Origin: a virus
Direction: 5' to 3' (one strand)
IMG/VR virus record: IMGVR_UViG_3300032184_000001
Location: 1-45,462 of that record
Length of the DNA: 45,462 nt
Shown here: positions 11,483-45,462 of the stretch, one piece after another
Numbering within the stretch: the first letter of the stretch is position 1
Layout of the letters: every line of letters begins with the position of its first letter
The notes under the pieces: generated by a model
The model's input: the letters and a program-made list of their open reading frames with translations, nothing else
Told to the model about the DNA's origin: nothing
The model's database searches: none
Translations under genes and position numbers: made by a program

Positions 11483-12340
11483 TCACGGAGTGTGAAACCT
11501 CGGGTTCATGTGGTAGGTCGAACGTGCCGCGCGATCAGTCACGCTTGCCCGGTATTCCGGGTCTGTCTTGTACCTCGGGTCCTGAATGGCCGCTTGCAAC
11601 TCCTCTTGAGAAGCAAACGCCATCTTCTCTCCTGGCACGGAAGGACCGCCCTTATTCGGGCCAGCCCGGAGGCCGGGACCTTCCGCAAGCGGCGGCAGTC
11701 CCATCTTGGACCGGATTTCCGCAATGGCAGCGTCTCGCTGCTCTGCGTTGTTGATCCGCGCGTCAAACGCGTCAATCTCCGCTCCGGTCATATTCTGATC
11801 GGCCCAATCGACCACCTTGTTGAACTCCGCCTCGCCGCCAAACGCGGTCATTACGGCGCTCGTGTGCTCGTCCAGGCCTTCCTTCGTCATGCTAACGACG
11901 CCCTGCACGCGTTCGCGCGGGATGCCGATGCTTTCAAAGGCTTTGTACTGTTCCTCAGTCAGGTCGCCATGATCGGCGATCTGCTTGTCGATCTCCGCGA
12001 AGTCCAGACCCGCCGCTTCTACAGCAGTCTTGATCGGATCGCCCTCACCTTCCCCAGGCTTCTCCTCCCCGGCGGGTTTCTCCGCCGCCTTCTCAGCGGC
12101 TTGCTTCGCCTTGAAGTCAGCCTCGACGGCATGAGACTTCCAATCGTACTCCCCGGTGTCCTTGTTGTAGAACTTGTCGTGGCCACCTTCCGGCATGGGA
12201 GTGACTTCGCCCTTCTCAGGCTCCTCACCACCGACATGCGCGGCGCTGCCATCTTCGTTCACAACGACGGCAGGTTTGTCCTCGCCGCCCTCGGGGTTCG
12301 GGTTGTCACCCTCAGCGGGCTTCTTCAACGTGGTCGTCAT
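11483..12340 (-). CDS. Scaffolding protein, gp9-like
   Basis: The product has 285 residues and starts behind GGAGGAG. The N-terminal third is very acidic and low in complexity (Glu, Pro, Gly, Lys). The middle is helical, and the C-terminus contains an EELQAAIQDPRYKTDPEYR segment followed by VTDRAARST, typical of T7-like capsid assembly proteins. It directs assembly of the procapsid and leaves before DNA packaging. Its place between portal and capsid confirms the call. Confidence 0.88.
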   Translation of the reverse strand: MTTTLKKPAEGDNPNPEGGEDKPAVVVNEDGSAAHVGGEEPEKGEVTPMPEGGHDKFYNKDTGEYDWKSHAVEADFKAKQAAEKAAEKPAGEEKPGEGEGDPIKTAVEAAGLDFAEIDKQIADHGDLTEEQYKAFESIGIPRERVQGVVSMTKEGLDEHTSAVMTAFGGEAEFNKVVDWADQNMTGAEIDAFDARINNAEQRDAAIAEIRSKMGLPPLAEGPGLRAGPNKGGPSVPGEKMAFASQEELQAAIQDPRYKTDPEYRASVTDRAARSTYHMNPRFHTP

Positions 12341-12571: not shown

Positions 12572-14094
12572 CACACTCCTCCTTCAATCTCGCCCTTCGC
12601 AAGGTTTGGCGCAGCACGCGCAATGGCGTCCCTCGCGGTTGCCAGTTCCGCTTGTCGTTCCTCCTCTGCGATGCGCTCACCCTCTGTCCGGGTAGCACCT
12701 GCGAAGCCAAGACCGACCAGTGCAGGCTTGATGATGTGTCCCAACTTAACGTGTGGCAGGACTTGTTCAGGTGAACCGAAGCTGTTCAACAATTCGGCAG
12801 CCTGCATTGCACGCGATGCGTCCCGCTCACGGGACAGCGCGTCGAGACCAGTAAGGATGACAGGCTTCACCCTCTCCCCGTCGATATCGGGAAGTTGGGG
12901 AAGTTCCTGTCGCTCCTCCATGTTATCGACAAGCAATTCAGTGCGGGCGCCCATCATGTCACCAATCAAAGACGCAAAGTTGCCGCCAAGCGCGGCTTCC
13001 AACTCTTGCAGATCCCGCTCAATTTCAGTCGCGGTGACGCGCTCTGCATCCCGCTGTCCTGCGCTAAACAGAAGAAACGCTTTTGCGATGTTAGACCGCA
13101 ATGTCTGCGCTTGCGTCTCAACGGTCGTAATCGCTTGGTTCACGTTGAACGCTTTGAAATCAATAGTCTCAGGGTCCGCGACGATGGTGTCACCAGTCAG
13201 CGCTTGTTTGATCCGGTTGCGAATACCCTGCGTGTTAGCGCCAGGGCGAATGAAGATGTAGCCAGTGCTCGCAAGTGCGCTCAACTCTAGCAGCGCCTTA
13301 TCGAGCGCCTCCAGAGAACGGAAATCCGCTATGTGCTCCTCGACCTTCGCACGCCCGTAATCTTCGCCTGGGGTCGCTGACCACCGAAGAAATCGGTACG
13401 GCAGGCGAGCAATCGGGAAGTTCTCTGAACCAATCTCAACGCCTTCGATCTCCTGCGTCACCTTGTAGAATTTGACACCCTTGCCGTCGTCCGCGATGCG
13501 TCCCCAGGTGTACATGAAGATCTCAGTTTCCGCAGTCGCCTGCGCTGGAGCGTGTTTGTCCCATTCTGCAGGCAGGGTGTCCTTGTCGAAGCGCTCCTCG
13601 ATCACAAACTCCGCGACCACGCCTTTGTGGTCCCGGCGCACAACGTAGCTATCGAGCCGGAACAGGCGAATGCTATCGTCGTCCAAGCTGTGCTCACACA
13701 CGTTGCCCGCGACGATCAACTGCTGCATTGCTTGAAACGTAATCGGGCGCCATCCTACCGTTTCGACTTTCCCCTGGATAATCGCTTCCATCAGGGATAA
13801 ACCGCGCGACACATCGGGATCTTCTTCCCCGTTGTTTGCCATCTTTGCTGCCGGGGGCAACTCGAACTTCATGTAGTTCCGCCCGGCGGGCATGAAGGCG
13901 CTGGTGTTCCGCGAGGCAAGATGGACCACCACGCGCGCACCGAGGCCCTGGTAGGGCTCCACAAGGTGCGACTGGTGATCATGTCCCTCAAGCGGCATTA
14001 GAGATGGGATAGTCAAAAGAGCATTGTGACGAGCGCGCTGTAGGAACTGCTCTCGGTCTGTGAACAATCGGTCGTATCGTTCCTTCGCACTCAT
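12571..14094 (-). CDS. Portal (head-tail connector) protein, gp8-like
   Basis: The 507-residue protein starts behind AGGGAGGAAG. Hallmarks of the gp8 family are the opening ERYDRLFTDREQFLQRARHN, the TIPSLMP motif, and LVEPYQGLGARVVVHLASR at about residues 46-64. The ring occupies one capsid vertex, is the channel for DNA packaging and binds terminase and tail tube A. Length is close to T7 gp8 (536). Confidence 0.93.
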   Translation of the reverse strand: MSAKERYDRLFTDREQFLQRARHNALLTIPSLMPLEGHDHQSHLVEPYQGLGARVVVHLASRNTSAFMPAGRNYMKFELPPAAKMANNGEEDPDVSRGLSLMEAIIQGKVETVGWRPITFQAMQQLIVAGNVCEHSLDDDSIRLFRLDSYVVRRDHKGVVAEFVIEERFDKDTLPAEWDKHAPAQATAETEIFMYTWGRIADDGKGVKFYKVTQEIEGVEIGSENFPIARLPYRFLRWSATPGEDYGRAKVEEHIADFRSLEALDKALLELSALASTGYIFIRPGANTQGIRNRIKQALTGDTIVADPETIDFKAFNVNQAITTVETQAQTLRSNIAKAFLLFSAGQRDAERVTATEIERDLQELEAALGGNFASLIGDMMGARTELLVDNMEERQELPQLPDIDGERVKPVILTGLDALSRERDASRAMQAAELLNSFGSPEQVLPHVKLGHIIKPALVGLGFAGATRTEGERIAEEERQAELATARDAIARAAPNLAKGEIEGGV

Positions 14095-14106: not shown

Positions 14107-14703
14107 TTATCTACTGCGCCTGCCGAACGAACCGCCCCGGCGAGATCTTCTCCGATTTCTGCGAGCGCGCCGAACCGCCGATCCAAACCCGCCGGCTCTA
14201 GGGGCCGATCTAGGCGCAACGGGACTAGTTGCATCCGCTACTTTCCGAGTTTCAGTCACCGGACTTGGTGCAGCGGGGCTAGTTACACGCCGCTTACGTT
14301 TTCCGAAAAAGCCACGAAAGGCCGCTCCAAATCCACCGGCACGTGGAGCGCCTGTCCCTTTCCGAGTGCTTACTGGACGACTAGGTCCGCCATCTCTAGC
14401 TGCGCGTCCCGGAGAAATACCGACCCGTGGTTTCTTGGAGGGCCTACCTTCTCTGGCTACTCGCGAAGCAGAAACGCCAGCCCGCACGATCCCAGGGCGA
14501 CTAGGTCCGCCGTCTCTAGCTGCACGGGCTGCTGAGATAGTAGGATCGCGGGGAGCAGGGCGGAGTGCCGCATCGCCACGATCTCCGCTAGGCACACTGC
14601 CGGGCTTAGCCCTATCAAAAAGGCCCCCAATCCCGCCCCTCGGCTTGTCCTCCGCCGCAACCAATGCTCCAGGCCGAGTGACTGCAAATGGTTTGATCGC
14701 CAT
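14107..14703 (-). CDS. Arginine-rich, repetitive basic protein
   Basis: The 198-residue protein is extremely basic, Arg/Gly/Ser/Pro/Ala-rich and probably disordered. It contains repeated units: RAARDGGPSRP occurs twice, with the variant RVAREGRPSKK between. PRAGGFG also occurs twice, once before AAFRGFFGKRKRR and once before a C-terminal run of Arg and Ser. The composition resembles protamines and other nucleic-acid-binding tails. The start ATG overlaps the preceding stop (TGATG). Position directly before the portal suggests a virion protein or an assembly factor that binds DNA; this is inference. Confidence 0.7.
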   Translation of the reverse strand: MAIKPFAVTRPGALVAAEDKPRGGIGGLFDRAKPGSVPSGDRGDAALRPAPRDPTISAARAARDGGPSRPGIVRAGVSASRVAREGRPSKKPRVGISPGRAARDGGPSRPVSTRKGTGAPRAGGFGAAFRGFFGKRKRRVTSPAAPSPVTETRKVADATSPVAPRSAPRAGGFGSAVRRARRNRRRSRRGGSFGRRSR

Positions 14704-25106: not shown

Positions 25107-25128
25107 CTTAGGGTCCCTTTTGCCCGTC
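25107..25128 (-). promoter_or_regulatory. Candidate phage RNA polymerase promoter P4 (replication operon)
   Basis: The minus-strand core GGCAAAAGGGACCCTAA occupies 25124-25108, with a predicted start at the G at 25107. It lies between the RNA polymerase stop and ssb, and its upstream edge overlaps the last codons of the polymerase gene. The three most upstream positions are the weakest of the five copies. By analogy with T7, transcription from here might also prime replication. Confidence 0.7.
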
Positions 25129-27640
25129 AAGCGAAGAACCACCGGGACCCCAAGACTTGTTGTACATCGAAATCCCCTAATGGCGGAGGATCCCGAAGAT
25201 CAACATCAATTTCCAGACCTTCCGCGCTCGCCTGAAAGTCACGTTGTAAACAGGCGAGCCAGTCGTCCTCATAGATGTACACAAACGTCGTGCGCAGGCA
25301 CTCGGCCAGCAGGTCCATGTCAGCAGCGTGCGTGCCGTAGCTGTCATGCACAACGCTGAACGACGTAAGGCCGCGTGTCACCGCCAAGTTTACCGTCAGT
25401 TGAAGATGGGCGGCGTCAAATGAGTGCACGATGTTCGGAGCGATGGCGAGCGCTTGCTTACCGACGAGCAAGCCCAGGCCTTTATCCTCCAGCATGATCT
25501 TGAATTGCGCCGGGGACTTGGCCCGCCCGCCGGGCGCCATGCGACCCACGCCAAGCAGCGTGTGAATTCGCTTGGACGCGGAGCGATAGTACCCCTGGTT
25601 CACCATCAGGCCGGCAGGAGTGACCCAAGACACACCACGTCCCGCCTCCGCGAGCGCCCGGGCGTTGTGCTGCATCCACTCCATGATCTCAATGGCGGCA
25701 ACCACGGTGTCGCTGATCGCTGCCTTCATGCGGTCCCGCATGTAGTTGGCGTTCACCATCACGTCGCCGTCGAGCCCTTCCGTCATGCGATCCTCGATCA
25801 ACTGGTCCCGCATGCCAATGTCGGTGAGCCCATAGGGTGTCGTCATCACGCCGCGCTTCACGACTTTGCGGGTGACGCGTCCGCGCCACGCGTGCTGTGG
25901 GCCGGCAGGAAGTTCGTCATCCCACTGGCAGTGGGCGTCCACGGCATCCGCCACCTTTTCTGCCACAATCTGGTAGATGTCCTGCCGCTCCTCCTCGGCG
26001 GTCAGATTGGTGGCGAAGGCGCCCGCCGGGTCACATCCCATGGCGGACAGGTGTTGCAGCCCGTTACACGTGCCGTCAACGTGGATTGGTAAGTGAGAGA
26101 TATATTTGTCCGGGCCACCCGCTTGACAGGTGAACGCGCCCTCCAAGTCAATAGCGGCAGCGAGGAATTGCCATGGCTCCTCCGCAGCGATCCAGAAAGC
26201 GAGCCCTTTACCTAGTGGGTCCACCGCTACATCGTGCAATTCATTCAAATGCGCACGGACCCAAGCGGATTGCGCCTCCCGGCTCTCTTTGTCGAGCCCA
26301 TAAGTGGCCGCAGTGTAATGCTGAAGCCACCCGAACCCTTCTACACCTAACGGCTTCCCCTCGGCGAACTCCAAGAGCCCGCGCGCCATGTCGTCGGCCT
26401 GCGGGTGGAGGTCTTGCGGGATCGGGTACATGCGGCCCCGGAAATCCATGTTATGCGGGAAGTAGATCACCGGCTCGTCCTTGAACTGGTGCGCAGTGGT
26501 CAACTGGCGACGCAGCGCTTGACGCTTGGCGTACGAGCGGTTGTTGTGGTCGTGCACCGTCCGTCGCTCATTCTTTGCCGCGCCCCGCTCCTGCGGGGTC
26601 ATCTTCTTCCATTCAGCGTCGCCGATCTCGGGCGGCAGGTCTCGCTCCGGGGGGGCCGGCAGCATCTCTGAGTTCAGTTCGAGCGCACGTTCCGCCACGG
26701 TAAGCACCCGCTTGTTGATGCGGAAGCCCGTCGCCTGCACCGCGTTCAGCGCATCGAGCACTTCCTGCGGAACCTCCGGGTCTTTCCATGTGCTGTGTAA
26801 AGCCATGACGCTCCGCTTGATCAACGGCTGGGTCGGCGTGAGGTAACCCCCGAGGTACGCGCCATGGTCGCTCATGGCCCACGGGGTCGGCGGACAGAGC
26901 ATCGGCTGTAGCCACGGGTCACGCATCGAGGCGTCTTTGTGGGCGTCCATCAGTTCACCCTCAGACTTCTCCGTAAGGCGCACGCTGATGGCGGTCCGAA
27001 CGCGGCCCCGCTTGCTTGTCGTGACCTGCACCTTCTCGAACCGCTCAGGGCACGTCTCGGCTAGTAGCTGAAGCATAGTGCGCCCCAGGCGCAGCTTAGT
27101 CTCGTGCTTCCACATGGTGGTCTCCACATCGTCAAGCTTGCGGAGCCACTTACGGACAGAACGCGGATCGATCTGCTTGACCGTGCGCTTCAGCATCTCG
27201 ATCCTGTTCGGACGCTGCTCCTCGCGTGCACGCTCACGTTCAAGGCGACGCAAGACACCCCACCGGACCTCTAGGTTGGCGACGTTGCCCAGGTTGCGCG
27301 CAGCGATGTTGACGACCTTAGTACTGCGTGTGCCCTGAAGCGCGACGCGGACTGTGAGGTATCCCCATACTTCCGGCCGCAGCGCCAGGAACTCCATCTC
27401 GCACCCTGTCAACCGACGCCCCGTCTTGAGCGCGGCCTTGAACTCCCGGCGCACGCGTGTTTGCAGTGCGCGGATGGCTGGCACAAACTCAGTGAGCGTG
27501 TCCGCCATGAAGTCCTGCCCGACAGGACAATCGAACTCCCGGTCGCGCGCCTGTGCGTTCGCCTGCTCAGCGTAGTAGCGCTCCAGCCCACGAGTGACAG
27601 AGTTCACTTCAAGGTCTAGCTGTCGGTCACGAAGGTTCAT
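25127..27640 (-). CDS. Single-subunit DNA-directed RNA polymerase, gp1-like
   Basis: The protein has 837 residues. Catalytic motifs match T7: Asp522 in PIHVDGTCNGLQHLSAM (T7 Asp537), Lys595 and Tyr603 in TRKVVKRGVMTTPYG (T7 Lys631 and Tyr639, same spacing), and Asp766 in VVHDSYGTHAAD (T7 Asp812). The C-terminus SRWFFA resembles the essential FAFA foot. It is slightly shorter than T7 (883), mostly between the first two motifs. It starts behind GGGAG. It should transcribe the replication and virion genes from the 17-mer promoters found in this genome. Confidence 0.97.
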   Translation of the reverse strand: MNLRDRQLDLEVNSVTRGLERYYAEQANAQARDREFDCPVGQDFMADTLTEFVPAIRALQTRVRREFKAALKTGRRLTGCEMEFLALRPEVWGYLTVRVALQGTRSTKVVNIAARNLGNVANLEVRWGVLRRLERERAREEQRPNRIEMLKRTVKQIDPRSVRKWLRKLDDVETTMWKHETKLRLGRTMLQLLAETCPERFEKVQVTTSKRGRVRTAISVRLTEKSEGELMDAHKDASMRDPWLQPMLCPPTPWAMSDHGAYLGGYLTPTQPLIKRSVMALHSTWKDPEVPQEVLDALNAVQATGFRINKRVLTVAERALELNSEMLPAPPERDLPPEIGDAEWKKMTPQERGAAKNERRTVHDHNNRSYAKRQALRRQLTTAHQFKDEPVIYFPHNMDFRGRMYPIPQDLHPQADDMARGLLEFAEGKPLGVEGFGWLQHYTAATYGLDKESREAQSAWVRAHLNELHDVAVDPLGKGLAFWIAAEEPWQFLAAAIDLEGAFTCQAGGPDKYISHLPIHVDGTCNGLQHLSAMGCDPAGAFATNLTAEEERQDIYQIVAEKVADAVDAHCQWDDELPAGPQHAWRGRVTRKVVKRGVMTTPYGLTDIGMRDQLIEDRMTEGLDGDVMVNANYMRDRMKAAISDTVVAAIEIMEWMQHNARALAEAGRGVSWVTPAGLMVNQGYYRSASKRIHTLLGVGRMAPGGRAKSPAQFKIMLEDKGLGLLVGKQALAIAPNIVHSFDAAHLQLTVNLAVTRGLTSFSVVHDSYGTHAADMDLLAECLRTTFVYIYEDDWLACLQRDFQASAEGLEIDVDLRDPPPLGDFDVQQVLGSRWFFA

Positions 27641-30202: not shown

Positions 30203-30384
30203 CAACCCCTCCTCGACAATGCGCCGCCGATCTGCCAGATGGCGCCCACGACGCTCTCAGCAAGCTGTACCCACTGGGCATGGCGATGTGCCTTGGCTTC
30301 CCGCTCCAGCTCCATCTCTTGCGCGATCTCGGACAACGCACGCGCAATGCGTCCGATGTCTTTGCTGTCGATATGTCCAGTCAT
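30202..30384 (-). CDS. Small helical early protein (60 aa)
   Basis: The product starts at an ATG behind GGGAG that overlaps the phosphatase stop. It is a continuous helix rich in Glu, Ala and Arg (DIGRIARALSEIAQEMELER) with a more hydrophobic C-terminal part (LAESVVGAIWQIGGAL). Possible coiled coil or membrane-associated peptide. No family is recognised. Confidence 0.6.
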   Translation of the reverse strand: MTGHIDSKDIGRIARALSEIAQEMELEREAKAHRHAQWVQLAESVVGAIWQIGGALSRRG

Positions 30385-30863
30385 CAGAAACTCCCATCTG
30401 CTACCTGAAAACAAGTGATCCCCTGTTGACGCCACATGGACACAACGCGGTCCCTGTCGTCGAGGACGATCCACGGCTCCAGCTTAAAGTGGTTGCGCAT
30501 GTTGCGCAGGATGTCCAGCTTGACCAATCGGTCGTCGCGGAAGTCCTTTGCCCCGCGCATGAAGATGTGGTCGTAGTCGATGAAATGCTTGTCGAGCCAC
30601 ATCGCGGTGAGTTCATGGTCGATGATCGAGCGCGCGGTGACGATCACACGCTGCATGCCGGACAGGGCGCCCAACGCATTGAACGCAGCGGCGACCGGCG
30701 TGTGCACGGCGTCCCCCAGGATTTCCCGGTGGAATGCGTCCCAATCCCGGTCAGCGGCGCGCTTCTTCAGCACATGGTGCAGGCGGTGTTGATTGTTCGC
30801 AAGCGTACCGTCCAGGTCGGACACCACGCACCACGACCAGTCGGGAGGCAGTACCTTGGTCAT
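30384..30863 (-). CDS. HAD-family phosphatase, polynucleotide 3'-phosphatase-like
   Basis: The 159-residue protein carries the HAD motifs in order: Asp16-x-Asp18 in VVSDLDGTLAN, VIVTARS, the Lys of a VKLDILRNM segment, and the acidic pair in IVLDDRDRVVSMW. Size and motif context match the phosphatase half of T4 polynucleotide kinase (PseT C-terminal type), without the kinase half. It could repair 3' ends of RNA or DNA cut by host defence nucleases. It is coupled to neighbours by short overlaps. Confidence 0.8.
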   Translation of the reverse strand: MTKVLPPDWSWCVVSDLDGTLANNQHRLHHVLKKRAADRDWDAFHREILGDAVHTPVAAAFNALGALSGMQRVIVTARSIIDHELTAMWLDKHFIDYDHIFMRGAKDFRDDRLVKLDILRNMRNHFKLEPWIVLDDRDRVVSMWRQQGITCFQVADGSF

Positions 30864-31060
30864 GTGTAAGGCTCCAGGTTGGCTTCTAGGGCGGTCCAGT
30901 TGCCCACGAGCGGATCACGGAAAGTAACCAATCGCTGTTCTCCAAGCGGCTTGATCGCGACTACCGGCCCGCCCATGAACGGAAGGGTCCCGGTAAACTG
31001 TGTAGTGTTCCGCAAAAACTCTCGGGTGAACCTGACCTTAGTCCCCAGGTGTATCTGCAT
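30860..31060 (-). CDS. Small beta-rich early protein (66 aa)
   Basis: The product starts behind GGAGGAG. The pattern of short strands (HLGTKVRFTREF, GGPVVAIKPLGEQRLVTF) suggests an SH3-like barrel. It overlaps the phosphatase start by four bases. No family is recognised. Confidence 0.65.
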   Translation of the reverse strand: MQIHLGTKVRFTREFLRNTTQFTGTLPFMGGPVVAIKPLGEQRLVTFRDPLVGNWTALEANLEPYT

Positions 31061-31223
31061 TTTTCTCCTCCGCTAGCTTCCGTTCCGCACATTTTGCCAA
31101 TGCCGCGCGGAACTCTGCAACGATTTTCTTCCTCTCGATCTCCCGCATCTCTTCTGCGGTCAGTTCAGGAAGCGGTGAACCGCGCGGCCCACGCCGGATC
31201 AAGAATTCTGGAATGTCATCCAT
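31038..31223 (-). CDS. Small early protein (61 aa)
   Basis: The product starts at the ATG behind GGAGGAACG, directly downstream of hairpin element E1. The acidic/basic mix opens with DDIPEFLIRRGPRGSPLP, then a long helix EEMREIERKKIVAEFRAALA. No family is recognised. Confidence 0.65.
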   Translation of the reverse strand: MDDIPEFLIRRGPRGSPLPELTAEEMREIERKKIVAEFRAALAKCAERKLAEEKNADTPGD

Positions 31224-31230
31224 CCACGTT

Positions 31231-31280
31231 CCTCCAAGTAATCCAGTGGAACGCACCGCGCACGATGCGCTCCCGCAGAT
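31231..31280 (-). ncRNA. Intergenic hairpin element E1
   Basis: On the minus strand GGAGCGCA (31273-31266) pairs with TGCGTTCC (31255-31248) around a ten-base loop, with one G-U pair. It begins right after the upstream TGA with TCTGCGG and is followed by ACTGGATTACTTGGAGG, which supplies the ribosome binding site. It is one of four related copies (E1-E4) whose stems differ by compensating changes. Confidence 0.7.
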
Positions 31281-31537
31281 CACCTGCACTCTATGTCTTC
31301 GTCGGCCACCGCACCCAGCGCGATGATCGCTTTCACGCGGTCGGTGTTCTCAACCAAGAACTCCGCAAGCGCGTTGACATCGCCGACGTGTAACTGCCCG
31401 TCACGCGGGGCACGCATGGTCAACGCCATGTAGCGCTTCTTCATCAGGAACTTCTGCGCCTTATAGAGTGCCGTAAAAGCCATGTCACCCACGACGTAGG
31501 CTTCACGCTTTACGATCTTCGCGGTCTCAAAGGACAT
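31280..31537 (-). CDS. Small early protein (85 aa)
   Basis: The product starts at the ATG behind GAGGAG with about ten bases spacing. It contains KREAYVVGDMAFTALYKAQK and an acidic end (AIIALGAVADEDIECR). Soluble; no family is recognised. It ends at hairpin element E1. Confidence 0.6.
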   Translation of the reverse strand: MSFETAKIVKREAYVVGDMAFTALYKAQKFLMKKRYMALTMRAPRDGQLHVGDVNALAEFLVENTDRVKAIIALGAVADEDIECR

Positions 31538-31637
31538 AGGGGTCAATCTCCTCGTCGATGATAGGGAACAACGGGACAGCGAAGCCGGCCCGGCGCAGTG
31601 CGTGGCGTTCTTCCGAATGTGCTTCAGTTTCCTCCAC
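31527..31637 (-). CDS. Possible small peptide (36 aa), GTG start
   Basis: This short frame fills the gap between two small genes and overlaps the next start by 11 bases. It reads plausibly (RRAGFAVPLFPIIDEEIDPY), but the GTG start lies close to a GGAG and no ATG is available. Weakly supported. Confidence 0.35.
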   Translation of the reverse strand: MEETEAHSEERHALRRAGFAVPLFPIIDEEIDPYVL

Positions 31638-31656
31638 GGTCTCCAGGTTCGCAAGT

Positions 31657-31854
31657 TCACGATCTACGGTCGTACCTCCTCAATGCGGCGCGTAGGTTTC
31701 GGATACGCGCGGTGTATACGCGATGTATGTGCGTCGTCGCCCACCGGTCGTGCGACTGCATCATGAGGGCGTCGTAACGTTCGAGGCGCGCTAACGTTTC
31801 GCGCGCTTCTTTCGCTTGCGCTTTAGTCATGCGCGGGAACTGCGGCGTGGTCAT
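31657..31854 (-). CDS. Small basic helical early protein (65 aa)
   Basis: The product starts at the ATG behind GAGGAAACG, inside the end of the preceding membrane peptide gene. It is highly basic and helical (TKAQAKEARETLARLERYDA, then VYTARIRNLRAALRRYDRRS), suggesting nucleic-acid binding. No family is recognised. Confidence 0.6.
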   Translation of the reverse strand: MTTPQFPRMTKAQAKEARETLARLERYDALMMQSHDRWATTHIHRVYTARIRNLRAALRRYDRRS

Positions 31855-31960
31855 TGCGTTTCCTCTTGTTGTATTGGGTGAACGCGAGCCACAGCAGGCC
31901 CGCAAGGATCACTGACACCGGGACGGTGACAACGACGGCGATTTTCTGGCGTCTAGTCAT
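31823..31960 (-). CDS. Small membrane protein (45 aa)
   Basis: The single membrane segment IAVVVTVPVSVILAGLLWLA follows a basic start (MTRRQK), consistent with an inner-membrane peptide with its N-terminus inside. The start overlaps the preceding stop (ATGA). The C-terminal third overlaps the next gene in another frame. Function unknown. Confidence 0.6.
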   Translation of the reverse strand: MTRRQKIAVVVTVPVSVILAGLLWLAFTQYNKRKRNDHAAVPAHD

Positions 31961-32358
31961 GGCGCGTCTGGTCTAAGACGTGCGCCACGCGTCGCGTAAT
32001 CCCGTTTGAAGATTGTCTGCGCGCTTCCGTGATGGACACACTCACCGTCTTCAAGAAAGTATTCCACAAGTTCGTAGCCCTCCTCGGCCAGCAGGAGCCT
32101 AGCGCTCTCAGTGTAGAACCACTGGAAGTACTGCGCTTCATCACGAAACCCGTATACCCAATCCCTCCCGGGGTACGGATATTCGTGACGGAGTAACGCA
32201 TCAGTACTTGGCTCAGGGTGCTCAGCGGACGTATTGAGGGGACAGTTCCCATGGTAATGCGCGCGAAACGCTCCTGTTGGATTTTCCTCGCAGTCCTTAG
32301 CGTGATGATACGGACCCAGCCCATCTTTCTCGATGCGGACAACACGAATTTTCGCCAT
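31957..32358 (-). CDS. Unknown early protein (133 aa)
   Basis: The product starts behind AGGAGGAG. It is rich in His, Tyr and Trp (GLGPYHHAKDCEENPTGAF, and FRDEAQYFQWFYTESARLL), with three Cys. The spacing of His and Cys could bind a metal, but no known motif is clear. Confidence 0.65.
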   Translation of the reverse strand: MAKIRVVRIEKDGLGPYHHAKDCEENPTGAFRAHYHGNCPLNTSAEHPEPSTDALLRHEYPYPGRDWVYGFRDEAQYFQWFYTESARLLLAEEGYELVEYFLEDGECVHHGSAQTIFKRDYATRGARLRPDAP

Positions 32359-32367
32359 GCTCTCCTC

Positions 32368-32997
32368 CTAGATCAAGTCGAACGCGTGCGCATGCAGCGC
32401 GCTCACCTGTTCGGCTGAACTGTAGCGCGTGGGCTGTCGCTCGGCGACGTAGGCGCACCACGAGTTCCACAGTGCCTCGGTTCCGCCAAGCTGTTCGACC
32501 AGCTTGCGGTAGTGCTTCACGTGCTTCGCCCGCGTCGCGGGACGCTTCGCCTTAGCGCGCTTAGAACTGATCGCCGCAGCGTCCAGACCGTAGCGCTTGA
32601 TGTTGTGGCTGTCGAGACAGCCCGAGATGCCGTAGGTGATCTGGAGCACGAAGCCCGCTTTGACCAGCCCGAAGCCCGGTAGGCTCGACACGTAGGCAAG
32701 CATTGCGTCTTCAACGACGCTCGGCTTTCCCGAAGACGCCCATAGGTTCTCAAGCGTCGTGTGGATGTGCGCGTGGTTCTCCTCGACGTAGCCATAGGCT
32801 GCATGCTTCCAGCCCCACAGCACTTTCTGCGCGTCGTGCACTTCGTTCTCGTTGTCACTGCGCAGCGCGGCCAGATTACCGATTGCGCGGATCAATGGCT
32901 GCTGAACAGTGAGGATAACGAACTGCATCACGTCGCGCAGGTTCTCGCTATCTTCACGCGCCCATCTGCTGATTAGTGGCTGATGGGTTTTGTACAT
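32368..32997 (-). CDS. Helix-hairpin-helix protein, DNA glycosylase-like core
   Basis: The product has 209 residues from the ATG behind GGAGGCAGC, directly after hairpin element E3. The middle contains a helix-hairpin-helix SSLPGFGLVKAGFVLQITYG followed by SGCLDSHNIKRYGLD, where an Asp occupies the place of the catalytic acid of HhH glycosylases. The rest is helical. It may bind or process DNA; enzymatic activity is unproven. The C-terminal part (KRPATRAKHVKHYRKLVEQL) is basic. Confidence 0.65.
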   Translation of the reverse strand: MYKTHQPLISRWAREDSENLRDVMQFVILTVQQPLIRAIGNLAALRSDNENEVHDAQKVLWGWKHAAYGYVEENHAHIHTTLENLWASSGKPSVVEDAMLAYVSSLPGFGLVKAGFVLQITYGISGCLDSHNIKRYGLDAAAISSKRAKAKRPATRAKHVKHYRKLVEQLGGTEALWNSWCAYVAERQPTRYSSAEQVSALHAHAFDLI

Positions 32998-33001
32998 TGC
33001 T

Positions 33002-33056
33002 GCCTCCAAGTTGACCAGTGAAGCACAACACATGGGGTGCCGTGCTTCCGCAGTCA
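33002..33056 (-). ncRNA. Intergenic hairpin element E3
   Basis: On the minus strand GAAGCACG (33048-33041) pairs with TGTGCTTC (33027-33020), seven Watson-Crick pairs and one G-U, around a 13-base loop. It starts at the upstream TGA with CTGCGG and is followed by ACTGGTCAACTTGGAGG, which contains the ribosome binding site of the next gene. Confidence 0.7.
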
Positions 33057-33533
33057 GCCCGTTGCGACGTCAGTCTCCTTCTTCGCCGCCTCGCGCTGCT
33101 CTGCGCGTATCTTTCTGATACACCGCCCTACCAGCGTACGTACGCGCGACCATCCGACTTCGTCGGACGTGTCGATGTATTTGTCATCGTGTGCGTCACA
33201 GCCCACGTTATAGCCGTGTCCCTCAAGCGTGCCAAGGATGCGGCGCAGCGAGCGCAGCGCGTCGTACGTCACTTCCTTATACCACTCGATGTACACGTCT
33301 TTCGACGTGCCGAACGACACCCTCACGCCACCATGTTCGCGCACGTTGTAGTGTACGTAGCGTAACGGCGTGCCGTTGTCGTAGTGCGAGTAACCGCACA
33401 ACTCCTCGGAGTACGAGCGCTCCGCCATGTAGTGTGCATGATACTCGACAGGCATGTACCGCCCGTCTGGCAGGATGTAGCACCCACCGGGACCAATGCC
33501 CTTGTCGGCATCAGCTTCGATGATGTGTGTCAT
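33054..33533 (-). CDS. Unknown early protein (159 aa)
   Basis: The product starts at the ATG behind GAGGAGAG, just after hairpin element E2. It is rich in Tyr, His and Gly (GPGGCYILPDGRYMPVEYHA, then YMAERSYSEELCGYSHYDN) with a basic C-terminal helix. It shares Tyr/His-rich character with the early proteins at 31957-32358 and 33668-34051. No family is recognised. Confidence 0.65.
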   Translation of the reverse strand: MTHIIEADADKGIGPGGCYILPDGRYMPVEYHAHYMAERSYSEELCGYSHYDNGTPLRYVHYNVREHGGVRVSFGTSKDVYIEWYKEVTYDALRSLRRILGTLEGHGYNVGCDAHDDKYIDTSDEVGWSRVRTLVGRCIRKIRAEQREAAKKETDVATG

Positions 33534-33544
33534 TGAACAACTCT

Positions 33545-33599
33545 CCTCGCTAGTAATCCAGTGCAACGCACCGCTTGCGCAATGCGCTGCCGCAGATCA
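33545..33599 (-). ncRNA. Intergenic hairpin element E2
   Basis: On the minus strand GCAGCGCA (33590-33583) pairs with TGCGTTGC (33570-33563) around a 12-base loop that itself contains TTGCGCAA. It begins at the upstream TGA with TCTGCGG, is followed by ACTGGATTACT and then GAGGAG. Outside the stem it is nearly identical to E1, while the second stem pair is C-G instead of G-C. Confidence 0.7.
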
Positions 33600-33671
33600 C
33601 CCGAGAGTTCGAAACATCCACGCGATTGCGTATGCAACCGCACAGACCAGGACAACATCAAGTACAGTCAT
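33597..33671 (-). CDS. Tiny membrane peptide (24 aa)
   Basis: The peptide MTVLDVVLVCAVAYAIAWMF plus four residues is almost entirely a membrane segment. Its start overlaps the preceding stop (ATGA) and its stop is the first base triplet of hairpin element E2. Translation is plausible by coupling. Confidence 0.5.
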   Translation of the reverse strand: MTVLDVVLVCAVAYAIAWMFRTLG

Positions 33672-34051
33672 TTGCGTACCTTGACGTGGCCTGCCTCAAA
33701 GCTGCTGAACTCAACATGCATCCACGTCTGTCCAGATAGACGGCCGACGTACTCAGCGAAGTCTTTGATCCACGCGTCTTGTGCTCTCGACGAGAAGTAG
33801 CTCACGACGTACGAGTAATGCCATTCGACATCCCGCTCGCCACTCTCAGGGTCACGCCAACCACCGCACCCTTCTGACATTGAGTAACCGCAAAAACGGG
33901 ACACCAGGGTCTTCTCGACTTCCTGCTGGGTTTCGATGGACATGTTCGGGAAAATTAGGGTCGCCTTCGTGCGCGTGCCTGTTTCCTCTTCGCGCCCGCG
34001 CGGAGTGAGGGCACTACAAAGCACACGACGGAACGTTTCGTTACTCGCCAT
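33668..34051 (-). CDS. Unknown early protein (127 aa)
   Basis: The product overlaps the preceding gene by 11 bases. It has Trp/Tyr-rich stretches (GYSMSEGCGGWRDPESGE, VEWHYSYVVSYFSSRAQDAW) and a strand-like C-terminus (MHVEFSSFEAGHVKVRK). Composition suggests a compact alpha/beta protein. No family is recognised. Confidence 0.65.
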   Translation of the reverse strand: MASNETFRRVLCSALTPRGREEETGTRTKATLIFPNMSIETQQEVEKTLVSRFCGYSMSEGCGGWRDPESGERDVEWHYSYVVSYFSSRAQDAWIKDFAEYVGRLSGQTWMHVEFSSFEAGHVKVRK

Positions 34052-34277
34052 CTTTATCCCCTTTCAAGTTGGACCATGCGTCAAGAAGTTCGTCGTCGTA
34101 GCAGTCGCTTTGTGAACGCATAGCACGCTTGATGAAACGAATACCGTCAAAGCGCGGGTTGTCACGGTAAAACGTTTCCAGAATGAACAGTACTTGCGCC
34201 CGCGCACCGTACGCGCAATCACCCGCGCCAATAACATCAGCCACAAGTTCGTAGTCTTTCTTAGTGTAGCGCGGCAT
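34041..34277 (-). CDS. Small acidic early protein (78 aa)
   Basis: The product starts behind TAGGAGT. It is helical, with GAGDCAYGARAQVLFILETF and an acidic tail (SNLKGDKDGE). Acidic early phage proteins often bind host factors, but nothing specific is recognised here. Confidence 0.65.
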   Translation of the reverse strand: MPRYTKKDYELVADVIGAGDCAYGARAQVLFILETFYRDNPRFDGIRFIKRAMRSQSDCYDDELLDAWSNLKGDKDGE

Positions 34278-34285
34278 GTTTACTC

Positions 34286-34459
34286 CTATTCAGTCCAGAT
34301 GGACACAACGACACCTGTACACACGCGGCAGTCAGTTTGCAGCGTGGTATTAGGTTTAGATTTGACTTTCCAGCCTGCGTAAGCTTGAACGTCAATGCGG
34401 CTGACAGTGCAAGCGCTCAGCACGAGCGCGAGCGCAACCGCTATGATTGCGTTTCGCAT
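34286..34459 (-). CDS. Small lipoprotein (57 aa)
   Basis: The N-terminus MRNAIIAVALALVLSACTVS is a lipoprotein signal with the lipobox Leu-Ser-Ala-Cys, Cys at residue 17. The mature 41 residues contain a Cys-x2-Cys (TDCRVCTG) and would be attached to a membrane facing the periplasm. It starts behind AAAGGAAC, directly after hairpin element E4. An early lipoprotein may act in superinfection exclusion; this is inference. Confidence 0.7.
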   Translation of the reverse strand: MRNAIIAVALALVLSACTVSRIDVQAYAGWKVKSKPNTTLQTDCRVCTGVVVSIWTE

Positions 34460-34464
34460 CAGCG

Positions 34465-34518
34465 TTCCTTTCAAGTTGACCAGTGGAGCACAACGCGCAC
34501 GCTGTGCTCGGCTTGTCA
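34465..34518 (-). ncRNA. Intergenic hairpin element E4
   Basis: On the minus strand GAGCACA (34509-34503) pairs with TGTGCTC (34492-34486) around a ten-base loop; the eighth, outermost pair is a C-C mismatch. It follows the upstream TGA closely, and is followed by ACTGGTCAACTTGAAAGG with the ribosome binding site of the lipoprotein gene. The tail is the same as in E3 apart from the last bases. Confidence 0.65.
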
Positions 34519-34683
34519 ACTTGGTGGCAAGACGGTCAGGCGAACGTTACCAGCGCGCATACGAAGCGGCTTGCGCGTGGTCTGAACGATTGACATAATG
34601 TCTTTCGCGGCTCGTTCGGCTTTCGCGCCTGTCGCGCCGTTCTGCGACAAGAAGATACGCACGAGAATTCCGTGGGTGGTCAT
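34516..34683 (-). CDS. Small basic early protein (55 aa)
   Basis: The product starts at the ATG behind GGAGATT. It reads TTHGILVRIFLSQNGATGAK, then a helix and a basic strand (LRMRAGNVRLTVLPPS). Soluble; no family is recognised. Its stop begins hairpin element E4. Confidence 0.6.
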   Translation of the reverse strand: MTTHGILVRIFLSQNGATGAKAERAAKDIMSIVQTTRKPLRMRAGNVRLTVLPPS

Positions 34684-36141: not shown

Positions 36142-36290
36142 CCGGGCAGAACGCGAGGTTTTCCCTTGGGTTCCGCGAGTTGTTGCGAGTGAGACGCAAG
36201 CGCAGGGGCTATGGGGGAAATCCAAACGCGCGCGGGGGGACACGGCTTGTGGATGTGTACCGTGACCCCTGCGCGTCGCTCGATTAGCCG

Positions 36291-38205: not shown

Positions 38206-38520
38206 TCACCACGTGATTGCCGTGAGCCCGATGTGCGACAGGTATGCATTAAGGCTCGTCTGCATCAACGCCGTCTCTCCTGCCGGAACATTGAGCAAGG
38301 GCTGGCGGGTGAACTTGGAGTTCCCCGCTCCGTGTGTGTTGAGAATTCCCCAATCTTCCGACGTGGCGCCAGCAACGACGTGCGCCGTCCGCAAGTCGTC
38401 TTCACTGATGCGGTCGGTGCTCGCCGCTGAAACGATTGCGTCCATTCGTGTGCGGATCGCCACGTAGCGGGCAGCAGCGGCAGCTTCCGCGTCCGCTCGC
38501 ATGTCAGCAACGAGGGTCAT
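38206..38520 (-). CDS. Unknown protein next to terminase (104 aa)
   Basis: The ATG overlaps the terminase stop (ATGA). The N-terminal half is Ala-rich and helical (ADMRADAEAAAAARYVAIRT), the rest mixed. A small terminase subunit was not found in its usual T7 place before terminase, and this protein is of similar size (T7 gp18 is 89 residues), but there is no motif to support that identity. Confidence 0.55.
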   Translation of the reverse strand: MTLVADMRADAEAAAAARYVAIRTRMDAIVSAASTDRISEDDLRTAHVVAGATSEDWGILNTHGAGNSKFTRQPLLNVPAGETALMQTSLNAYLSHIGLTAITW

Positions 38521-40706
38521 AAGACTTGAACCTCCTTTAACTCTTTGATCTGATTGGTCAAATTACGGATTGTGATGACCATCCGCGCGTCTGGTTCTCG
38601 ACCTACAGCGAGATCCGTCTGTACTGTAGCTTGTAGCCGGTCACGTCGTTCCGTCAAACTGATCAGGACTTGGTCTTCTTCCAGTAGACGCTCGGCGAGC
38701 GGCATGTCTTGCATCCCGCTCACGTCATGCCGGCCAACGCCCATGGTGATGCCGCCCGTAGTGCCGAGACCGCCCTCGCGTAGAGAACGCCCACGGTAGT
38801 TCTCAAGCTTGTCGGTTTCGTAGTTCGCGATGTTGTCCGCGATGTCGGAGATAAGTGATCCCTTCGCTCGCGCAACTGCGTGCGCCAGGGCGTCCACGTA
38901 GTCGTCGTGGTCCTTCGTCTTCGCTCCGGTGCGTCCATCGTAGGACACGCGGACCATCTGATTGACGAACTCACCGCCATGATCAGAGCGTGCAACGCTC
39001 TCCAAGATGCACAGGCGCCCCGCCGCCATGGGGGGAGCAAGGCTCTCGATGATCCGCTGGCCCTTCTTCTGCTGACCTGCCGTCACCTTCTCGACCGCCA
39101 TAGGGTAGCCGAGGAGGACCAGTTGTCCCTCCAGCGTCTCGCCGAAGAACCCGTCCGCTAACTCCTCGACCACCAGAACGGTAGCGGAGAACTCACGGAC
39201 GATCTCTGCGGTGCGCCGCATGGCCTGTGCCTTGTTGGCGGCACGCACGCCTTCAACGTGACGGATCACACCGTAGCCGGAGGGCGTCACGCCCAGGACC
39301 GCAACGCCGATGGCGTCCCGTCCCGCGAGGCCCGAGGCCGGGTCAACTGCAACAATGGTCATGGCGTAGCGCGCGGAGGCATCAGCCATGGCCCGAGGAC
39401 CGTACCACGCGTCCCCCTTCGGCGCTGCCCAGGTGGTGATGTTCAGCTTCTCGCCGCCACCCTCAACCGTGACCGGGAACGTCTGGTCCTTGGGGGACCG
39501 GTTGACCACGATCAGGTCCTTGATCTTCAGTGGGCGCTCGTTCAGGATCGTCGGGTCCGCGATCAACAACGCGTGCAGTCGCCACGCGCGTTCGGTTACA
39601 GCCCGGCGCCAGTCAAGGGCCTGCTTGTCGGTAAACATGGCGGGCCAACGGGAGTGAATGATCTTCTTCCCGTCAACCTCGTCTTCCTCGAACATGCACG
39701 CTCGATGCTCCTCCCAAACTTTGGTGCCTTCGTCGTCATCGAGGTCGGCAAGCTTGGCGTAGACACTGAACTCGGACTGATACGTTCCCAGCATGACCTT
39801 GCGCCCCTTCGGGTTGATCATGTGGATTTCGTTGAGCGTCTCCTCCAGGTCCACGATCTTCTCAGGCGTATCGTCCTTCGGACCTTCTACGTCGTCGCAG
39901 ATGGTTTCGTCGGAACGATACCCCGGAAGGTTCGAGGTAACACCGAGTGACATGAGCGTCACACCGCCAGTCGCAACGTTTGCGGCCTGCGGGGTTTGAA
40001 ACTGGTCGGCCGCATCGAGGCAGTCCTCGTTGGGCTTCAAATGTTCGAGCAGCGGGCAGTTCTCGATGAAGACACGCCGCACGATGCGCAGCATGCGCTT
40101 CGCCAAGTTTTCACCGCGAGAGATCACCAAGATTTTGGTGAGCGGGTTGCGCCAAATTTTCCACGCCACGTACATGGCAGTCAACGTGGACTTCGCGCTG
40201 TACCGGGTGGCGATGATAAGGACCCGTAAGTGCTTGGAAAGTAAGCCCTTTTTGATGTCGTCGTGGATCGCGCCGGGCTCCATCCATCCGGCGACCAGGG
40301 GCGACAGGATGTCGATGAACAACTCGAACTGTGCAGCTTCGTCGTGATCGAGCGCAACCAGTCGGTCGTCGAGTTCCTTCTTGATCTCCTCTAGGCGCGC
40401 GCGATCCCGCTCAGGATGACACGCGTACATCTCGGCGATGATGTCCCTCGCGTTATCAGCGGCTTCCCGTATCTTCGACGGTGCACGCGTCACGCCTTTC
40501 TCGGCGGCGGTGACGCCTTGACACACCCGGCAGACGTTCGACCACCCGCGCAGACTGTCCTTGCGCTTGGACAGTGCGAACGTCTGACGGTTGACGGGCT
40601 TCTCCTCCCAGCACTCGCTGCACTGACGGAGCACCCCTAGTTCGGCCTGGGCTTCAGCGCTAAGCTTCTGCTTAGTTTTTGGGGCGCGTCGGTTTCTCCC
40701 AGCCAC
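38517..40706 (-). CDS. Terminase large subunit, gp19-like, with N-terminal zinc ribbon
   Basis: The product has 729 residues from a GTG start with GGGGAGAAGG upstream, overlapping the o-spanin gene by 35 bases. Residues 29-62 hold two Cys-x2-Cys pairs (29/32 and 59/62) with a basic linker, an extension absent from T7 gp19 (586 residues). The ATPase has Walker A ATRYSAKST (166-174) and acidic Walker B SDETICDDVEG (Asp271-272). The RNase H-like nuclease carries AVDPASGLAGRDAIG, VVEELADG and KDHDDYVDALAH. It packages DNA and cuts concatemers. Confidence 0.93.
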   Translation of the reverse strand: MAGRNRRAPKTKQKLSAEAQAELGVLRQCSECWEEKPVNRQTFALSKRKDSLRGWSNVCRVCQGVTAAEKGVTRAPSKIREAADNARDIIAEMYACHPERDRARLEEIKKELDDRLVALDHDEAAQFELFIDILSPLVAGWMEPGAIHDDIKKGLLSKHLRVLIIATRYSAKSTLTAMYVAWKIWRNPLTKILVISRGENLAKRMLRIVRRVFIENCPLLEHLKPNEDCLDAADQFQTPQAANVATGGVTLMSLGVTSNLPGYRSDETICDDVEGPKDDTPEKIVDLEETLNEIHMINPKGRKVMLGTYQSEFSVYAKLADLDDDEGTKVWEEHRACMFEEDEVDGKKIIHSRWPAMFTDKQALDWRRAVTERAWRLHALLIADPTILNERPLKIKDLIVVNRSPKDQTFPVTVEGGGEKLNITTWAAPKGDAWYGPRAMADASARYAMTIVAVDPASGLAGRDAIGVAVLGVTPSGYGVIRHVEGVRAANKAQAMRRTAEIVREFSATVLVVEELADGFFGETLEGQLVLLGYPMAVEKVTAGQQKKGQRIIESLAPPMAAGRLCILESVARSDHGGEFVNQMVRVSYDGRTGAKTKDHDDYVDALAHAVARAKGSLISDIADNIANYETDKLENYRGRSLREGGLGTTGGITMGVGRHDVSGMQDMPLAERLLEEDQVLISLTERRDRLQATVQTDLAVGREPDARMVITIRNLTNQIKELKEVQVL

Positions 40707-42938: not shown

Positions 42939-45462
42939 TCACTGATCCTTCTGCATAGCGTTGAGGATAGCCTGGAGGTAGAACGTGTTGATGACCGGCA
43001 TCATCCTCGATGCTTGGTTCCACGCTTTCTCCCACTCACCGTCTGCGAGTTTCTGGCCAACGCGAAGCGTGCGCTGCGCCATGGACGCCGCAGGACCGAG
43101 TAGTGGGGCAAACCCCTCACCTTCCCGAAACCGGGTGGCCGCTTGGGGTAGCGGGCGGATGCCCGTGAGACTTTCGATGCCGTCGTTCGCTTGGCGACCG
43201 AAAGAGTTGAATGCGATCTCCGAGACGATACCAGAGTGCGCTACAGCCATCGGGCTCCGTAAGAACCCCTTAGCGTACATGTCACGCCACCCCTCGTCGT
43301 CCTCAAGCTGCTTGAACCACTCTTCGGCCTGCCCACGCGTTGCTGCGCGGGCGAAGTCGGAGAAGATGCCCATGTGCAAGCCCATGAGGACTGACAAGTA
43401 CGGGGTAACGTCACGCGGGCTCATTTGGAACCGCTGGGCCATCGGGAGGATGTAGCGGTCGCTCGACGCGAATGCGTAGCCCAACAGCCCGGTTAGCATC
43501 TTTCCCATGGGAATATGCCGGATGAACGGGCGGTCGCCGATGTCGGCGGTGATGGTCGCCTCCTCCTGCGCCGTGTCCAACATCTTCTTGTACTTGGCCA
43601 GGAGGTCGGGACGCTCACGTGCCCACGCGGCAGTGTCCGGCGCTTTCCAGCGCTCACCAATGACGTGGTGGTGTTTGTCCAGCAGGACCCGCATCTGCTC
43701 GGCTTCGTTGGCACTGATGCCACGCCGGGCGTACACGGTCTTCACCTGCTCGGGCACGTTGGCCCAATTGGCAAGATCCCGTTCAAGCTGCACGACGACC
43801 ATGTTTCCGAAGGTCCGCTGCTGCCAGCGGGTCATCAGGTTCATGAGGTTCGCCTTCATCTGCACCTGCGCTAACGTGTTGGCGATCAACTGCACGCGAC
43901 GAAGGGTCGAGCCCGGCGTCGCCTTGGCGAACTCCTCGCCCACAACGTTCGCGATGCGGCCGTCGATGGTGGCGGTGAGCCCCTGTACGTAGATCAACAA
44001 CTCCGGTTCCTTCTCGGCGAGTTCCAGAAGCTCCCGTTTGATCGCAGGCTGGTTCCAGACTGCCTCGAACAGAGCGCGGTGGTTCGTCGCTGCCATGAAC
44101 ATCGTCGCCACGTCGGCCATCTGTGAGAACACGCTGCTTCCCAGCATTGACGCGGACACGAGGTTGTTCATGATGCCTTCGAACGCGGACCAGCCACGGA
44201 ACGCATCGTCGATCTTCGCAGCGTGAGCATGTGTGATCTCGCCTAGGAGCCCATCGAACAACATACCTACGGCGCGCCGGTCTTCAGTGATCATCGTGCG
44301 CTGTGCCGGCGTCAGTTTCGGGTTCGCCAGTGCGGCGTCGATCTTCTCCATGAGATCGGCCTTGTGGCCGGCGATGAACTCGTTGGCGTCGTTGCCCCGA
44401 CCAGCCTTGGGCTCACCGAGGGCCTGCCGCAGAGCCAAGTGGTTGCCGGCGCTCTGCTGATACGACGCGCGTAATTCCTCGCGGTTCTCCCGCAGGAACT
44501 GACGAACCTCCGGGTCAAACTCCGCGGTCCCCAGGTGGAGGTATCGCCGCTTGAACCGGCCAGACTGCTCGACGAAGGCCGGAGGCTGTCCCCCTAATGC
44601 CTTCTCGCCCAGGATGGAGTTGCGGATGGAAGTGACTTCCTCCTCGATGGTGCGGGCCATGACGCGTGAGATAGTACGAGCTTCAGCCTTGTCCAGACGC
44701 CGGGCCTGCTTTGCGAGACCTCGCTTGCGCCCACGAGAGCCGAACTTCTCTGCTGCCTCGCGGAGCAACTTAGTGTTGCCCAGCGCTCGATTGAGCGCAT
44801 CCAGTTTCTCCGTCTCGTTGGCGATCTGTCGTTCTAGGCGTGCAATCCGGGTTGCCAGTTTGGTGCGCTGATCTGCTGTCTTCTTGGACTTGCCCAGTTT
44901 CTTCAGGTCCACCATAGCACGCTCTAGGGACGCCTGCCGCGTCTCGATGGTACGCGTTGTCTTCTCATACGCCTCCTCGACCGTCTTGGCCGCGAGGATG
45001 TCGAGTTCTGCCTGGACCTGTCTCTGCGATTGCTCGGCTGCTTCGGTCGCCATATCATGCACTTGGGCGTCCCAAATATCCTTGTACTCGACGTAGAGTT
45101 CGGGATCGCCCTTGCGGAGGTCCTCGACTGAGCCCCACTTCTTCTCGATGGCGTCCAGTTCAGCCTGCCGCTTCTGAACAGCCTTGTCGCGGGACGTCTG
45201 CCCTTGGGGTGATTTGGGCGCCGGCTTCTCGGTAATTTCGTCCAGTTGATTTTGGAGGTCGATGGCCCGCTGCTCGTCATCCACGGTGCGCAGGAGCCCA
45301 GCGTTAGCGAGAAACTCGTCGTTAGGACCCATGCGCAGGATCGCCGTCCGCAGCACGTGGGAGAACGCCACTGGGTTACCTTCGATAGCAGCAGTGTCCC
45401 AAGATTGCGGCGTGTAGAGTTCAATCACGTCTTTGTCGTCGATCAGCCCGGCCTCACGGAGG
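42939..45462 (-). CDS. Internal core (ejection) protein, gp16-like, C-terminal part
   Basis: This is the remainder (about 840 residues) of the protein that begins at 1450. The frame enters at 45461 without a start codon; the apparent GTG at 45426-45428 is internal. It contains a long coiled-coil-rich part (about the first 300 residues here, with KKLGKSKKTADQRTKLATRI), and several amphipathic segments further on, typical of ejected core proteins. It ends one base before the tail fibre start. The split is an artefact of where the circle was opened. Confidence 0.85.
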   Translation of the reverse strand, partial: LREAGLIDDKDVIELYTPQSWDTAAIEGNPVAFSHVLRTAILRMGPNDEFLANAGLLRTVDDEQRAIDLQNQLDEITEKPAPKSPQGQTSRDKAVQKRQAELDAIEKKWGSVEDLRKGDPELYVEYKDIWDAQVHDMATEAAEQSQRQVQAELDILAAKTVEEAYEKTTRTIETRQASLERAMVDLKKLGKSKKTADQRTKLATRIARLERQIANETEKLDALNRALGNTKLLREAAEKFGSRGRKRGLAKQARRLDKAEARTISRVMARTIEEEVTSIRNSILGEKALGGQPPAFVEQSGRFKRRYLHLGTAEFDPEVRQFLRENREELRASYQQSAGNHLALRQALGEPKAGRGNDANEFIAGHKADLMEKIDAALANPKLTPAQRTMITEDRRAVGMLFDGLLGEITHAHAAKIDDAFRGWSAFEGIMNNLVSASMLGSSVFSQMADVATMFMAATNHRALFEAVWNQPAIKRELLELAEKEPELLIYVQGLTATIDGRIANVVGEEFAKATPGSTLRRVQLIANTLAQVQMKANLMNLMTRWQQRTFGNMVVVQLERDLANWANVPEQVKTVYARRGISANEAEQMRVLLDKHHHVIGERWKAPDTAAWARERPDLLAKYKKMLDTAQEEATITADIGDRPFIRHIPMGKMLTGLLGYAFASSDRYILPMAQRFQMSPRDVTPYLSVLMGLHMGIFSDFARAATRGQAEEWFKQLEDDEGWRDMYAKGFLRSPMAVAHSGIVSEIAFNSFGRQANDGIESLTGIRPLPQAATRFREGEGFAPLLGPAASMAQRTLRVGQKLADGEWEKAWNQASRMMPVINTFYLQAILNAMQKDQ
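45446..45462. repeat. Terminal overlap, copy at window end
   Basis: This is the second copy of the 17-base end overlap. Removing one copy gives a circle of 45445 bases. Confidence 0.9.

Follow-up and report, generated by a model that had tools for sequence, protein, structure and literature searches.

We asked what four related hairpins, E1 to E4, are doing between the early genes of the virus contig IMGVR_UViG_3300032184_000001, a 45,462-base IMG/VR record that was analyzed over its full length (hereafter, the window) and on which the genes treated here all lie on the minus strand. A first-pass annotation had described a stop codon, a short hairpin and conserved flanking motifs in the gaps ahead of four genes and had offered four possible functions, namely, RNA processing sites, protein binding sites, translational switches or transposed regulatory cassettes. 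The described sequences were present in all four gaps, on the minus (transcribed) strand, and the function named first turned out to be the best supported: E1 to E4 are probably signals at which RNase III processes the polycistronic early mRNA of an Autographiviridae-like phage. This reading draws on the paired two-stem RNA, the covariation of its stems and a layout like that of T7, in a genome with a T7-type polymerase and genes for a terminase and an internal virion protein. It also draws on two relatives, the nearer of which keeps positional orthologues of E1 and E3 and a changed but still paired hairpin at the position of E4, while the more distant one has a stop-codon hairpin with a central loop.

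Architecture of the four elements

In the minimum-energy fold of each copy on the transcribed strand, two stems flank a small central internal loop: a lower one of about 9 to 10 bp and an upper one of 10 to 12 bp, the latter capped by an apical loop of 4 to 5 nucleotides (nt). This gives about 21 bp of irregular duplex, with fold energies of -28 to -35 kcal/mol across the four copies. The 8-bp hairpin of the first-pass annotation corresponds to a real upper stem, but the lower stem, formed by columns 2 to 11 paired with columns 47 to 56 of our alignment A2, lay outside it. Likewise, the reported layout ACTGG-NNN-ACTTG is present in the sequence, but NNN belongs to the lower stem as its 3' arm and changes in step with the 5' flank, giving GAUC/GAUU in E1 and E3 and GAC/GUC in E2 and E4. 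Nor does the stop codon simply precede the hairpin: in each of the four copies, the TGA of the preceding frame sits within the lower stem, in its 5' arm. The ribosome-binding site lies just past the 3' arm, and in the window copies the next start codon follows 8 to 15 nt beyond the element.

E1 (31234 to 31286, minus strand, as are the other three) has a GCG/ACU internal loop, a UGCG apical loop and the upstream TGA in its 5' arm; its folding z-score is -4.34, and it scores 79.6 bits, as a training member, with our covariance model. E2 (33006 to 33061) and E3 (33549 to 33603) follow the same two-stem plan with 12-bp upper stems, capped by a loop of five bases and a GCAA tetraloop, respectively. 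In E1 to E3, GCG stands opposite ACU in an internal loop predicted to be a symmetric 3x3. E4 (34471 to 34523), which has a 9-bp perfect lower stem and again a UGCG apical loop, is broken differently at its internal loop, the 5' side reading AAGCC in place of TGCGG.

Selection on RNA structure and conservation in relatives

Covariation was assessed on a small set of six copies, E1 to E4 and two from the nearest relative, which share ancestry, with a shuffle control that ignores this relatedness. Standard pairs filled 94.3% of the pair cells, versus 31 to 43% when the partners were slid by 1 to 3 columns. Both sides had changed in 10 of the 21 pairs (4.8 in shuffles) and in 17 cells (6.0 in shuffles), with five such pairs in each stem. 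The changes claimed earlier for stem positions 2 and 6 were right as a set, but E2 and E3 had been swapped; from E1 to E4, position 2 is G-C, A-U, C-G and G-C, and position 6 is G-C, A-U, G-C and A-U. Position 4 varies between G-U and G-C, as claimed. The cells that are not Watson-Crick comprise 23 G-U and only 2 A-C on the transcribed strand, and pairing of the six copies amounts to 94.3% on that strand versus 77.2% on the opposite one, indicating that it is the RNA of the transcribed strand that stays paired. A simple binomial for this bias gives 1e-5, which is an overstatement given the relatedness of the cells and the use of the transcribed strand to draw the structure, but the direction of the bias is clear. 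Covariation, strand bias and conservation in a relative thus support the selection on RNA structure for which the first-pass annotation had argued, and it acts on RNA of the transcribed strand.

The individual copies fold better than expected by chance, with folding z-scores of -4.3, -2.5, -5.3 and -4.8 for E1 to E4. Among 56-nt stretches of 11.6 kb, E1, E4 and E3 ranked second to fourth in stability and E2 about eleventh. With a strict stem/loop/stem descriptor, E1, E2 and E3 ranked top in the window; shuffled genomes gave 0 to 1 match each, and these single matches scored up to 17.0, which is the range of E2 and E3. The descriptor misses E4 because the internal loop of that copy differs. On its 3' side, the internal loop reads ACU in every one of the six copies, compared with 66 to 70% identity in the stems and 48% in the apical loop. 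The TGCGG/CACTGG loop motif is found in five of the six, its 3' side in six of six.

The nearest relative, IMGVR_UViG_3300022306_000003 (47,503 bases; here G003), has a polymerase 77% and a terminase 87% identical to those of the window, and its early gene order is the same. Covariance model R1 matched two copies in G003, at 10077 to 10131 and 12223 to 12275, which correspond in position to E1 and E3; both, like E1 to E4, were in the training set, so that their scores do not count as independent. At the E4 position of G003 (13103 to 13155) stands a hairpin with a z-score of -5.78 in which the lower stem GUUGACA/UGUCAAC is kept, while the upper stem has largely changed yet remains paired; its 3' side reads CACATG, without the CACTGG motif. 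At the E2 position of G003, the hairpin is absent and the two flanking genes overlap. The refutation test named in the first-pass annotation, applied to this relative, thus found pairing kept at three of the four positions; at the fourth, the flanking genes remain but the element does not. The empty E2 site (11830 to 11740, minus strand) reads GCACTGGAGGAACG, which resembles the joined element ends CACTGG and GGAGGAACG and might be the deletion scar of an element. In the window, a 61-amino-acid (aa) gene (31038 to 31223) lies between E1 and a 66-aa gene. No counterpart of it was found in G003, and there the 66-aa gene comes immediately after the element; a gene has thus been gained or lost beside the E1 hairpin.

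In a more distant relative, G005 (L053), whose polymerase is 43 to 45% identical, the most stable early hairpin (2281 to 2338; z-score, -6.57) starts at a stop codon and ends short of the following gene, with a 2x2 internal loop at its center and no sequence likeness to E1 to E4. A second intergenic hairpin in G005 (3335 to 3382) also lies between a stop codon and the following gene. We regard both as candidate RNase III sites of unrelated sequence.

The covariance model gave no match at an E value of 10 or less in 78 contigs bearing a related polymerase, and it gave none in G005, G006 or T7. A loose-pattern search of IMG/VR returned 31 contigs, and the exact pattern had no match in genome_contigs. 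The best further candidate besides G003, L043 (23 bits; E value, 0.0016), had been preselected by pattern and showed stem mismatches, and it was not accepted. A generic scan for stop codon, hairpin and start codon in distant relatives gave many matches in coding regions and was too noisy to count prevalence. As far as we searched, the sequence family thus appears confined to a small group made up of the window phage and G003. None of the 4,227 covariance models of Rfam matched E1 to E4, the only match elsewhere in the window being at chance level (E value, 0.3); with no tRNA found either, we discarded the idea that the elements are a known Rfam RNA or a tRNA.

Probable RNase III processing and its alternatives

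As a control, we folded the T7 genome (NC_001604) in 71-nt stretches around its RNase III sites, using the cut coordinates attributed to Dunn and Studier (1983). Most sites, and most clearly R0.3, R0.5, R1, R1.1, R4.7 and R18.5, folded as a lower stem, an internal loop, an upper stem and a small loop. The cuts, mostly between UAU and GA, fall on the loop's 3' side, which is where the invariant ACU of the E elements stands. R1.3 and R3.8 gave hairpins with little or no internal loop, and R6.5 and R13 did not form the two-stem plan in the 71-nt stretch used. As in E1 to E4, a stop codon stands at or in the 5' arm of two T7 sites: that of gene 0.4 (ending at 1433) lies within the 5' arm of R0.5, and R1 starts just past the stop of gene 0.7. 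Of the ten RNase III sites of T7 (PMC9135205), R1.1 is an intergenic RNA of 60 nt from the early region; its internal loop measures 4/5 nt, and a single main cut by RNase III yields fragments of 47 and 13 nt (PMC6121014; PMC4858673).

The likeness between E1 to E4 and the T7 and T3 signals (R0.3, R0.5, R1, R1.1, R1.3 and others) extends from an intergenic position in the early operon, in phages that encode a T7-type polymerase, to the two stems around a central internal loop, the small apical loop, the ribosome-binding site after the hairpin and the conservation, among copies within one phage, of the sequence around the loop. Our elements differ by a longer, G+C-rich upper stem and by the occurrence of copies only in the early block, whereas T7 sites are also found in later regions; moreover, the T7 and T3 sites are known to be cut, while cleavage of E1 to E4 is predicted. 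The first-pass annotation knew of no described family like this one, which holds for the sequence family, absent from Rfam, but not for the kind of element, which is already known from the early operons of T7 and T3 with the same anatomy and placement. Two hairpins in other contigs, L084 (1275 to 1326) and L095 (3245 to 3296), lie over a stop codon and have a 2x3 central loop whose 3' side, GCUUUAUAAGG, recalls the T7 sequence CCUUUAU cut ahead of GA.

If E1 to E4 are processed in this way, host RNase III would dock on the irregular duplex of about 21 bp and make a single cut between CACU and GG, 3' in the internal loop. Inferred from the T7 sites, the predicted cuts fall between 31245 and 31244 in E1, 33017 and 33016 in E2, 33560 and 33559 in E3, and 34482 and 34481 in E4. 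The upstream message would then end in the upper hairpin and be shielded from 3' exonucleases, while the downstream message would begin 19 to 26 nt ahead of the AUG, its ribosome-binding site freed from the stem. Neighboring genes would thereby gain separate mRNA lifetimes and translation rates. A ribosome that terminates at the stop codon within the 5' arm would open the lower stem, and translation of the upstream gene could thereby delay cutting. For T7 messages, an effect of cleavage on translation and stability is well established (Dunn and Studier, 1975, as cited in PMC4858673).

Several points weigh against processing by RNase III. The T7 control depends on cut coordinates attributed to Dunn and Studier (1983). 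The E1 to E3 loop is a symmetric 3x3, whereas that of T7 R1.1 is an asymmetric 4/5; in the same fold computation, internal loops vary among the T7 sites as well. E1 to E4 have no sequence likeness to the T7 sites, and the covariance model finds nothing in T7. Shape alone is no proof, given how many RNA structures RNase III can cut, and the strong conservation of TGCGG/CACTGG could also mean a specific binding protein. Finally, RNase III specificity varies between bacteria (PMC6121014).

Because the loop sequence is conserved, the most serious rival is an RNA-binding regulator: the hairpins would be translational operators, left uncut, whose conserved internal loop is bound by a phage or host protein controlling the genes that follow. 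Conservation of the loop beyond the needs of pairing speaks for it, as does a lower stem that abuts the ribosome-binding site. However, the 5' loop motif is missing from E4, and CACTGG from the G003 hairpin at the same position, both with their shape kept; a nuclease that reads shape therefore fits better than a specific regulator. No candidate regulator came to light, although none was looked for, and we consider such operators unlikely. We give as little credence to a group-specific, RNA-marked regulon in which a phage or host protein or nuclease other than RNase III would read the TGCGG/CACTGG loop and jointly control the four early genes.

Hairpins in lambda and Escherichia coli lie near ribosome-binding sites, where RNase III cleavage or binding alters translation or stability. 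Intercistronic or leader sites of this type are the lambda N leader, cIII and E. coli pnp (named in the text or references of PMC5371410). These are single regulatory sites, whereas E1 to E4 form a repeated family separating the genes of one operon. E1 to E4 also recall the extended start-associated sequences (ESAS) of cluster K mycobacteriophages, described as repeated inverted repeats of unknown function just before the starts of some non-structural genes, conserved in position among related phages (PMC3203893). The ESAS differ in being 17-bp imperfect inverted repeats with a 4- to 13-bp spacer, next to a constant 13-bp GGGATAGGAGCCC box, in another type of phage, and a two-stem fold with an internal loop is not among the features described there (PMC3203893). 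No 13-bp box of the GGGATAGGAGCCC type, as in the cluster K SAS and ESAS, was present in E1 to E4 or their flanks.

It is very unlikely that the hairpins work uncut, as barriers protecting 3' ends or as spacers that stop ribosomes from reading through within the early operon. They do directly follow or overlap stop codons, and their upper-stem loops are small (UGCG or GCAA in three copies), but this would leave the conserved central internal loop and the lower stem unexplained and would need another source of 3' ends, since no E copy is among the terminator-like sites of the region. Rho-independent terminators were themselves rejected, there being no T run after any copy.

Also very unlikely are mobile or recombining DNA repeats, that is, palindrome-bounded intercistronic linkers spreading between gene cassettes. 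E1 and E3, as well as E2 and E4, are near-duplicates in parts, G003 has an empty site where E2 would be, and in the window an additional gene comes after E1. Yet covariation and one-strand G-U favor RNA over DNA, the strand bias likewise pointing against a DNA-level palindrome or recombination site; the elements have a single orientation, and no more copies were found in the 78 polymerase-bearing contigs. Copying within the genome may explain the origin of the copies, but not their upkeep. Promoters of the phage RNA polymerase, which repeated intergenic elements in a phage encoding its own polymerase might suggest, can practically be set aside, as the E copies covary, which promoters need not do, and another repeat, CCCWWWNGGNNCCCTAARCC, fits phage promoters far better.

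Gene setting and meaning

The motif CCCWWWNGGNNCCCTAARCC has five matches with up to 2 mismatches in the window, where 0.01 is expected, all on the minus strand (15619 to 15600, 25124 to 25105, 29174 to 29155, 37663 to 37644 and 38012 to 37993) and one of them just past the polymerase gene. These are probably promoters for the RNA polymerase that the phage encodes, a T7-type single-subunit enzyme (25127 to 27640, minus strand; phrog_414; E value, 9.6e-185) whose gene marks the downstream end of the early block. From this gene and those annotated for the large terminase subunit (38517 to 40706), an internal virion protein (42939 to 45428) and a polynucleotide kinase (30384 to 30863), we infer an Autographiviridae-like phage, which we call distant because its polymerase shares about 31% identity with the best matches in the phage collection searched. 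DNA similarity of the window to cultured phages was nil at 1e-5; at E values up to 10, matches were mostly short, in the polynucleotide kinase gene and scattered elsewhere, the best (4e-4) covering 45 bases of the integrase gene of a Desulfovibrio phage record.

By gene order and analogy with T7, the small genes read ahead of the polymerase presumably form the early block and share one polycistronic message. On the minus strand, E1 is followed by the 61-aa gene mentioned above, with its ATG 10 nt past the element, and E2 is followed by a 209-aa gene (32368 to 32997), with its ATG 8 nt past the element and a GGAGG abutting the lower stem. The 159-aa gene after E3 (33054 to 33533) has its own TGA inside the 5' arm of E2. 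The 57-aa gene after E4 (34286 to 34459), with a signal-peptide-like start and its ATG 11 nt past the element, has an 80% identical homologue in G003. Ahead of the early block, both genomes have two further hairpins, at 36282 to 36223 and about 36143 to 36115 (minus strand) in the window and at 14684 to 14625 and 14560 to 14500 in G003; one of the two has an identical core, AAGGGATGTGTTATCCCTT, in both.

If E1 to E4 are indeed RNase III signals, message cutting of the type detailed in T7 and T3 would extend to an uncultured, distant branch with unrelated site sequence. This would suggest that, in T7-like phages, the arrangement of a stop codon, a two-stem hairpin and a ribosome-binding site outlasts sequence. 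The E copies and their covariance model would then provide ready substrates for studying what RNase III reads in the internal loop and could help to follow how cut sites come and go.

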